NCBI RefSeq assembly: GCF_003244315.1
Contig: NZ_QKWH01000007.1
Coordinates: forward strand, 1 to 64,000
Origin: Xylanimonas oleitrophica
GTDB taxonomy: Bacteria > Actinomycetota > Actinomycetes > Actinomycetales > Cellulomonadaceae
Length of the DNA: 64,000 bases
Direction: 5' to 3'
Shown: positions 22,008 to 23,725 of the stretch, one piece after another
Layout: every line of letters begins with the position of its first letter
Position numbering within the stretch: position 1 is the stretch's first letter
Translations under genes and position numbers: made by a program
Notes under the pieces: generated by a model
Database searches by the model: none
Told to the model about the DNA's origin: nothing
Seen by the model: only the letters and a program-made list of their open reading frames with translations

Positions 22008-22595
22008 GTGCACGTCTACGTCGTCCTCTCCCGCAGCGACACCGTCCTCTCCCGCCTGATCGGCGCGGTGACCGGTGACGAGTACACCCACGCCGCGCTG
22101 GCGCTCGACCCCGGCCTCGGCCTGATGTTCAGCTTCGGCCGTCGGCGCGCGGGCAACCCCTTCGTGGGCTGCTTCAAGCGCGAGCGGCTCGACGACGACG
22201 TCTACGGGCGCGCGCGGGAGCTTCCCGGCGTCGTGCTGGCGGTGCCGGTCACCCCCGCCCAGCGCGAGGCGGTGTGCGGCCAGCTGGCGCAGTTCCTGCT
22301 CGACAGCCACGCCTACCGGTACAACACCGCCGGTCTCGTCAGCGCCCTGGTGGGCCGGGGGAGCGAGGACGACACGCGCTTCTTCTGCTCGGAGTTCGTC
22401 TACCACGTGCTGCACCGGGCGGGGGTGTGCGACCTGGGCGTCCCCCGGCGGCTCGTGCACCCGCAGACGCTGCTGGGCGTTCCGGGGGAGGTGCTCTTCG
22501 AGGGTGACCTCAAGGCCTACGCGGCAGCCGCAGCCCCCGCGGAGAGAGGCGCCTCGTTGACGTTCGATCGAACGCGTGTTCGAATGGCGGCGTGA
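22008..22595 (+). CDS. permuted papain-fold (NlpC/P60-like, YiiX-type) hydrolase
   Basis: The 195-residue protein has the permuted NlpC/P60 arrangement: an early His in EYTHAALAL (His28) and a late catalytic Cys in RFFCSEFVYHVL (Cys127), with a Tyr/Asn motif (YRYNTAGL) between. Such proteins cleave amide or thioester bonds in peptides or lipids. There is no signal peptide, so it should be cytoplasmic. The last 34 bases of the gene contain the promoter and LexA box of the next gene, and the stop overlaps that gene's GTG (GTGA). Substrate unknown. Confidence 0.8.
   Translation: MHVYVVLSRSDTVLSRLIGAVTGDEYTHAALALDPGLGLMFSFGRRRAGNPFVGCFKRERLDDDVYGRARELPGVVLAVPVTPAQREAVCGQLAQFLLDSHAYRYNTAGLVSALVGRGSEDDTRFFCSEFVYHVLHRAGVCDLGVPRRLVHPQTLLGVPGEVLFEGDLKAYAAAAAPAERGASLTFDRTRVRMAA
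22557..22585 (+). promoter_or_regulatory. SOS promoter of the radical SAM gene
   Basis: A -35 TTGACG (22557-22562, 5 of 6) and a -10 TCGAAT (22580-22585, 4 of 6) are exactly 17 bp apart. The predicted start 6-7 nt later falls on the GTG at 22592, so the mRNA would be leaderless. The spacer and -10 hold a perfect LexA box. Confidence 0.75.
22568..22583. promoter_or_regulatory. perfect LexA (SOS) box
   Basis: TCGAAC-GCGT-GTTCGA equals the actinobacterial/mycobacterial SOS consensus TCGAAC-N4-GTTCGA. An overlapping palindrome GTTCGATCGAAC occupies 22562-22573. The box covers the spacer and -10 of the promoter, so LexA binding would exclude RNA polymerase. Confidence 0.85.
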
Positions 22596-23725
22596 GATGG
22601 GACGCGCAATCCGTCACGGCTGACGAGGGGACCCTGCCCGGCCTGGACCGGCCCGGGCTCGAACGCGCGGGCCTGCTCCGGTCCGTGCGCACCCCCGAGT
22701 TCGCCGGGATCACCTTCCACGAGGTCACCGCCAAGAGCGCGCTCAGCAAGGTCCCCGCGATGAGCAAGATGCCCTTCCGGTGGACGATCAACCCCTACCG
22801 CGGCTGCTCCCACGCCTGCACCTACTGCTTCGCCCGGCCCACCCACCAGTACCTCGACCTCGACGCCGGCAAGGACTTCGACTCCGAGGTCGTCGTCAAG
22901 GTCAACGTCGCCGACGTGCTGCGCACCGAGCTCGCCAAGCCGTCCTGGCAGCGCGAGCCCGTGGCCCTCGGCACCAACACCGACCCCTACCAGCGGGCCG
23001 AAGGGCGCTACCGCCTCATGCCCGGGATCGTCACGGCGCTCGCGGACTCCGGTACGCCGTTCTCGATCCTCACCAAGGGCACGCTGCTGCGACGCGACCT
23101 GCCGCTGATCGCCGAGGCGGCCGGCCGGGTCGAGGTCGGCCTCGGGGTGTCGATCGCGTTCGTGGACAAGGAGCTGCAGCAGGCGGTGGAGCCAGGGACC
23201 CCGGCGCCCCAGGCCCGCCTCGACCTCGTGCGTGCGATCCGGGAGGCCGGCCTTCCCTGCGGTGTCATGGTGGCCCCGGTGCTGCCGTGGCTCACCGACT
23301 CCCGGGACCACCTGCGGCGCCTGCTCGACGCCGTCGCCGACGCGGGCGCGACCGGGGTGACCGTGCTGCCCCTGCATCTCAAGCCCGGCACGCGCGAGTG
23401 GTACCTGCAGTGGCTCGGGCGCGAGCACCCGCACCTCCTCGCCGGGTACGAGCGTGTGTTCCCGCGCGGCACCTACGCGATCACGGCCTACCGGCAGTGG
23501 CTGTGGGAGCGGGTGCGCCCGCTCCTGGAGGAGCGCGGCTTCGCGTCGTCCGGCCACCGGGCCCGCTCCGGGGCGACAGGCCGTCACCACGACGACGTGC
23601 GGGCCTCGCACGACGAGGGTGACTACCCGTCCGGCTCGATGGTGCGGGGTGCGGTAGCGGGCATGCCCGCCGACGGGGGAGACCTGCGGCTGGCGGGCGG
23701 CGGGATCGAGCAGGTCCTGTTCTGA
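22592..23725 (+). CDS. radical SAM protein, Rv2578c/SPL-like family
   Basis: The 377-residue protein has a radical SAM cluster motif CxxxCxxC at Cys72, Cys76 and Cys79 (RGCSHACTYCFARP), preceded by FRWTINPYRG and followed by LGTNTDPYQ and FSILTKG, the pattern of spore-photoproduct-lyase-related proteins such as mycobacterial Rv2578c. Members are presumed to repair or modify nucleic acids, but the reaction is not established. A perfect LexA box in the promoter supports a DNA-damage role. Position between hisS and aspS is conserved with mycobacteria. The Gly/Arg/His-rich C-terminus (about 315-345) looks disordered. Confidence 0.9.
   Translation: MRWDAQSVTADEGTLPGLDRPGLERAGLLRSVRTPEFAGITFHEVTAKSALSKVPAMSKMPFRWTINPYRGCSHACTYCFARPTHQYLDLDAGKDFDSEVVVKVNVADVLRTELAKPSWQREPVALGTNTDPYQRAEGRYRLMPGIVTALADSGTPFSILTKGTLLRRDLPLIAEAAGRVEVGLGVSIAFVDKELQQAVEPGTPAPQARLDLVRAIREAGLPCGVMVAPVLPWLTDSRDHLRRLLDAVADAGATGVTVLPLHLKPGTREWYLQWLGREHPHLLAGYERVFPRGTYAITAYRQWLWERVRPLLEERGFASSGHRARSGATGRHHDDVRASHDEGDYPSGSMVRGAVAGMPADGGDLRLAGGGIEQVLF

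Follow-up and report, generated by a model that had tools for sequence, protein, structure and literature searches.

An SOS box at a fixed distance from the start codon and a clamp-binding-like tail suggest a damage-induced, DNA-directed role for the Rv2578c family of radical SAM enzymes

For years, SOS regulons have been known to include SplB-like radical SAM proteins with no assigned substrate, and their name points to a spore lesion that most of their hosts could not form. The window analysed here, the whole 64-kb stretch of Xylanimonas oleitrophica DNA, contains a gene of this kind preceded by a palindromic SOS box that lies within the coding sequence of the upstream open reading frame (ORF), raising the questions of whether the box controls the radical SAM gene and of what an enzyme under such control would do.

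The radical SAM gene begins with a GTG codon (22592-22594) that overlaps the TGA stop codon of the upstream ORF in the tetranucleotide GTGA. Ahead of it, an SOS (LexA) box (TCGAACGCGTGTTCGA) with perfect palindromic half-sites of the form TCGAAC-N4-GTTCGA occupies positions 22568-22583, an assignment based on sequence and positional conservation. On the positive strand, a -35-like element, TTGACG (22557-22562), is separated by a 17-nt spacer (22563-22579) from a -10-like element, TCGAAT (22580-22585), which overlaps the right half of the box and is followed by 6 nt to the GTG; the box overlies the spacer and the -10, as in LexA promoters of the actinobacterial type, where box and promoter overlap. 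All of these elements, including their location within the last codons of the upstream ORF (22008-22595), were found where the first-pass annotation of this DNA had placed them. Its description of the promoter as complete is borne out by conservation but not by match to consensus, as TCGAAT has no A at position 2 of the sigma-70 -10, which explains why a generic promoter and terminator scan, finding nothing at the SOS-box site, missed it.

This is the only perfect SOS box in the window; the 3.49-Mb genome contains three in total, compared with 0.05 expected from base composition and 0.12 from a first-order Markov model. The second perfect box (contig C11, 721351-721366) is accompanied by TTGACA and located upstream of a small-protein gene followed by dinB, and one-mismatch boxes are found upstream of recA, upstream of uvrA and in the lexA/nrdR region, with dinB, lexA and nrdR assigned from translations read by eye. 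The third perfect box (contig C11, 510180-510195) adjoins short ORFs in the vicinity of a DNA-methyltransferase-like ORF, in what may be a mobile or prophage region. The occurrence of the motif at recA, uvrA, the dinB operon and the lexA region indicates that the LexA protein of this genome evidently uses TCGAAC-N4-GTTCGA. An ArsR-type motif has been described that is similar to the SOS box (PMC8151990), and the operator could accordingly serve another regulator with a similar palindrome, however this is very improbable given that the same motif is shared with recA, lexA, dinB and uvrA here and that proteobacterial relatives of the gene carry instead the LexA motif typical of their lineage.

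The upstream ORF (22008-22595, positive strand, 195 aa) is situated between hisS and the radical SAM gene and belongs to no recognised family; its earlier labelling as a hydrolase could not be upheld, as it has no Pfam or NCBIfam match. The stretches CSEFV and YTHAAL recall NlpC/P60-type YiiX hydrolases, as an impression only. With the box inside this ORF, the C-terminal end of which is retained in two relatives, the palindrome might be ascribed to coding constraint on its last codons, or to chance. However, a full-length homologue with the same GTGA overlap was found at only two other loci (L106 and L195) of the approximately 190 compared, whereas the position of the box before the radical SAM gene is kept in most of them. 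Since the upstream ORF is recognisable in only three loci, that of the window included, the box is considered to belong to the radical SAM gene, and an origin of the palindrome by chance or upstream coding, refuted by this positional conservation, retains a negligible probability.

Conservation of the box was evaluated in Rv2578c-family members collected from genomes sampled over the phylum, from the window's own family and from named genomes. Rv2578c itself is reportedly a member of the mycobacterial LexA regulon. Of 191 distinct upstream regions, 135 contain a box with up to two mismatches whose first base lies 23-27 nt ahead of the start codon, at exactly -24 in 86 of them; a perfect box is found near the start codon in 63 of the 191, against a background rate of approximately 1e-4 per position elsewhere. 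Loci from the named genomes are biased to close relatives, and the counts from an evenly drawn phylum set are therefore safer; in this set, GAAC-N4-GTTC lies near the start in 72 of 88 genes, representing 22 families, compared with 4 of 2406 background stretches. By both counts, the comparison of Rv2578c-family upstream regions across Actinomycetota that had been proposed on first pass gave a strongly positive result. The promoter is conserved together with the box: TTGAC is kept at the same distance from the box in the 135 aligned regions (T 88%, T 74%, G 76%, A 64%, C 72%), the positions conserved relative to the box being TTGAC at -11, T at +12, A at +15 and T at +17, and the T in the last position of the -10-like element is conserved at 90%. 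In this register the spacer measures 17 nt, and six or seven nt separate the end of the -10 from the start codon. The box, the promoter register and the conservation of both were computed directly, and control of the radical SAM gene by LexA is very probable; from these computations, we infer that LexA would bind the site and that DNA damage would induce the gene in X. oleitrophica.

The position of the -10 and the fixed box-to-start spacing place the putative transcription start on the first base of the GTG (22592, positive strand). As this fixed geometry leaves no space for a ribosome-binding site, it supports the earlier suggestion of a leaderless transcript, and on sequence grounds the mRNA of the radical SAM gene very likely begins at the GTG itself. 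The leadered exception is provided by Streptomyces-type members, in which the box lies farther out, at -46 to -49, and the ATG has GAGGAGG ahead of it, suggesting that control was kept while the leader changed.

The gene product (22592-23725, positive strand, 377 aa) belongs to the Rv2578c family, in keeping with the homology to Rv2578c given in the first-pass annotation: it scores 534 bits against the NCBIfam model NF038135, for which the cut-off is 430, and 51 bits against PF04055. Features in common with the family include a full-length match, an MRW start, CxxxCxxC, GTNTDPYQRAEGRY and EPGTP; the C-terminal EQVLF of the window protein differs from the commoner QPTLF and QLTLL, however nothing excludes membership. 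Against the PA0069 family model (NF033668), the protein scores 223 bits, below the cut-off of 360. The CxxxCxxC motif (22805-22828, positive strand), a putative [4Fe-4S]/SAM site formed by Cys72, Cys76 and Cys79, contains the only invariant cysteines among 53 aligned members. Many members of the family, at approximately 500-750 aa (e.g., L051, L190, L194 and L198), greatly exceed the domain in length and are split by insertions that fit the intein-containing NF038136; the window's radical SAM gene has no such insertion.

In an AlphaFold2 model of the window protein, the radical SAM domain is confident and confidence is low at residues 1-19, 78-86, 322-342 and 361-377. The top PDB matches in a fold search were to spore photoproduct lyase (SPL; 4FHC and 4K9R) with an E value of 1e-6, a TM score of about 0.5 and 13-14% identity, making SPL the closest solved fold and justifying the earlier description of the protein as SPL-like; an EPGT...APV stretch is also common to SplB/SPL and the window protein. 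Family membership and fold are direct results of computation. Identity with SPL was rejected: neither SPL model (PF20903 in Pfam, TIGR04070 in NCBIfam) matches the window protein, and the extra catalytic cysteine of SPL (C140 in the solved enzyme) has no invariant equivalent among the 53 members, so that the protein would not be expected to catalyse the SPL reaction itself. Of 198 sampled genomes, 9 encode a separate PF20903 SPL-like paralogue, and no PF20903 match was found in the window's own genome. Two of these paralogues, L241 (Streptomyces-type) and L244, contain QQALFGWED or DADALFGLD near the N-terminus, which is clamp-motif-like, and the C-terminal RYAF is not.

The C-termini of Rv2578c-family proteins consist of a stretch rich in Pro, Ala, Arg and Gly followed by sequences such as QLTLL, QLSLI, QLSLF, QPTLF, QATLF and QLALFA. 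Bacterial polymerases and MutS bind the DnaN clamp through a pentapeptide with a consensus of the QL[S/D]LF type, and DnaE1 (Pol III alpha) of the same genome contains QFDLF. A strict form of the motif, Q[LPAMQ]x[LMI][FLIMVY] within the last ten residues, was computed to occur in 109 of 193 distinct tails, whereas shuffling the tails gave 0.4 occurrences and the 35 residues just before gave 2; L is found at -2 in 168 of the 193 tails and F at -1 in 115. Tail length ranges from 17 to 76 residues among members with the motif. The family resembles the DnaN-binding polymerases and MutS in the form of the motif and in its place on a flexible tail, differing in that it is a family of radical SAM enzymes, and it shows the sequence hallmark of a DnaN-binding protein, a QL[S/D]LF-type motif on an exposed tail. 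Binding of the clamp by the family is thus predicted with good confidence. No report of a clamp-binding motif in radical SAM or SplB enzymes was found in the open-access literature, although one may exist elsewhere.

In control sets, the motif was present in 1 of 64 distant viral relatives, in none of 6 PF20903 paralogues and in none of 5 other plasmid-borne relatives. The SPL-like paralogues of the phylum also lack the box. As evidence on the other side, the motif is missing from two deep families, f42 and f46. The sole viral relative with a canonical clamp motif (L352) ends in EQLGLF, and only distant relatives were found as phage copies. The PA0069 family, which includes SplB/COG1533 genes described as SOS-controlled, has a homologous domain and the same C-terminal motif as the Rv2578c family, and its members are often preceded by a LexA box of the type used in the host lineage, differing from the window gene in N-terminus and type of operator. 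Among proteobacterial PA0069 members, all 10 have a Qxx[LM][FL] ending and 7 have a box of their own lineage, GTTC-N7-GTTC or CTGT-N8-ACAG. In an actinobacterial PA0069-like subgroup, f19, the tail motif is present in 10 of 10 members and the SOS box is absent; the lexA genes of this subgroup carry a diverged operator, CAAAC-N4-GTTTG, which was not found before the f19 radical SAM genes. With neither operator, these genes appear to be outside LexA control while keeping the C-terminal motif, and the two features are therefore separable. The tail motif seems to be at least as widely kept as SOS control.

The window protein has a variable C-terminal tail (residues 322-372; 23555-23707, positive strand) that is modelled mostly at low confidence, with pLDDT below 50 at 322-342 and 361-377, and is predicted to be disordered. 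It is followed by EQVLF (23708-23722, positive strand), a derived form of the clamp-binding-like QLTLL/QPTLF motif. EQVLF recurs in related genera (L106, L112, L168, L195 and L197), Isoptericola and Cellulosimicrobium among them, and neighbouring members have DQTLF, QPALF, QLTLF or SETLF. Because the Q of EQVLF is displaced by one position, clamp binding is less certain here than in the family, and the chances that the window protein may bind DnaN are judged to be even.

The derived tail, and the fact that clamp binding is a prediction, leave room for an alternative in which the gene is a LexA-controlled, SplB-like repair gene with no link to the clamp, the C-terminal motif being a degron or an enzyme-packing tail. 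Published work is in keeping with this: splB-like genes are LexA/SOS-controlled in alpha- and betaproteobacteria (PMC3323433) and SOS-controlled in Bacteroidetes (PMC8565304), and a radical SAM gene of S. venezuelae, vnz_31145, which could be of Rv2578c type or a PF20903 paralogue, is bound by LexA in ChIP and induced 20-fold (PMC9380542). A "DNA repair photolyase" of M. tuberculosis, which may or may not be Rv2578c, shows RecA-dependent induction (PMC8151990), and in a Streptomyces study the gene was found to be naturally inactivated in one strain and the link to repair was called speculative (PMC12924846). However, the motif of the family corresponds to the canonical QL[S/D]LF clamp consensus, it may be placed one to several residues before the end of the protein (QLALFA, QLALLP, QLDLFAGIV), unlike a terminal degron, and the tail that carries it is predicted to be disordered and is variable in length. 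A role without the clamp is accordingly considered unlikely.

The substrate must also be considered, as radical SAM enzymes are diverse and the lower-ranked fold matches of the window protein include lipoyl synthase and MiaB, so that a tRNA, a peptide or a small molecule might be modified within the damage response. This is rather improbable, given that the closest fold is that of DNA-acting SPL and that the clamp motif, like LexA control, suggests a DNA substrate. We infer that DNA is the substrate, and reversal of a DNA lesion by radical chemistry is probable.

The reading that we favour as fairly probable is that the gene, SOS-induced and transcribed without a leader, encodes a radical SAM enzyme tethered to the clamp and reversing a DNA lesion. 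Without damage, LexA would cover the spacer and the -10 and block transcription; upon damage, activated RecA would bring about self-cleavage of LexA, and the radical SAM protein would then be translated from a leaderless mRNA whose first bases are the GTG. The SPL-like domain, with its one CxxxCxxC cluster, would generate a 5′-deoxyadenosyl radical from SAM, which may act on a base lesion, reversing it directly instead of excising it. For the majority of family members, docking on DnaN would be provided by a flexible tail that terminates in Q-[L/P/A]-x-L-[F/L], and would bring the enzyme to stalled forks or gaps. A clamp motif that is kept even without a LexA box would place the enzyme at replication forks or gaps, narrowing the search for its substrate to lesions met there, and clamp docking would extend the clamp-dependent repair proteins to include radical SAM enzymes. 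More broadly, and somewhat less surely, the Rv2578c and PA0069 families may constitute a widespread class of clamp-docked DNA-repair enzymes, controlled by LexA through differing operators in many lineages, whose lesion is not the spore photoproduct.

A suggestive parallel exists in archaea, where an SplB-like gene often adjoins that of NreB, whose relative NreA has a PCNA-binding motif, and where a role in crosslink repair has been suggested (PMC4929162); in the archaeal case the link to the clamp is on a neighbouring protein, whereas in the Rv2578c family it would be on the tail of the enzyme itself. With regard to regulation, SOS control of such genes is known in kind, and the phylum-wide architecture with its fixed distance was found here. 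The actinobacterial LexA promoters of recA, dnaE2 and dinB have the same 16-bp box overlapping the promoter, however at the radical SAM gene the box is locked 23-27 nt before the start codon and the transcript is probably leaderless.
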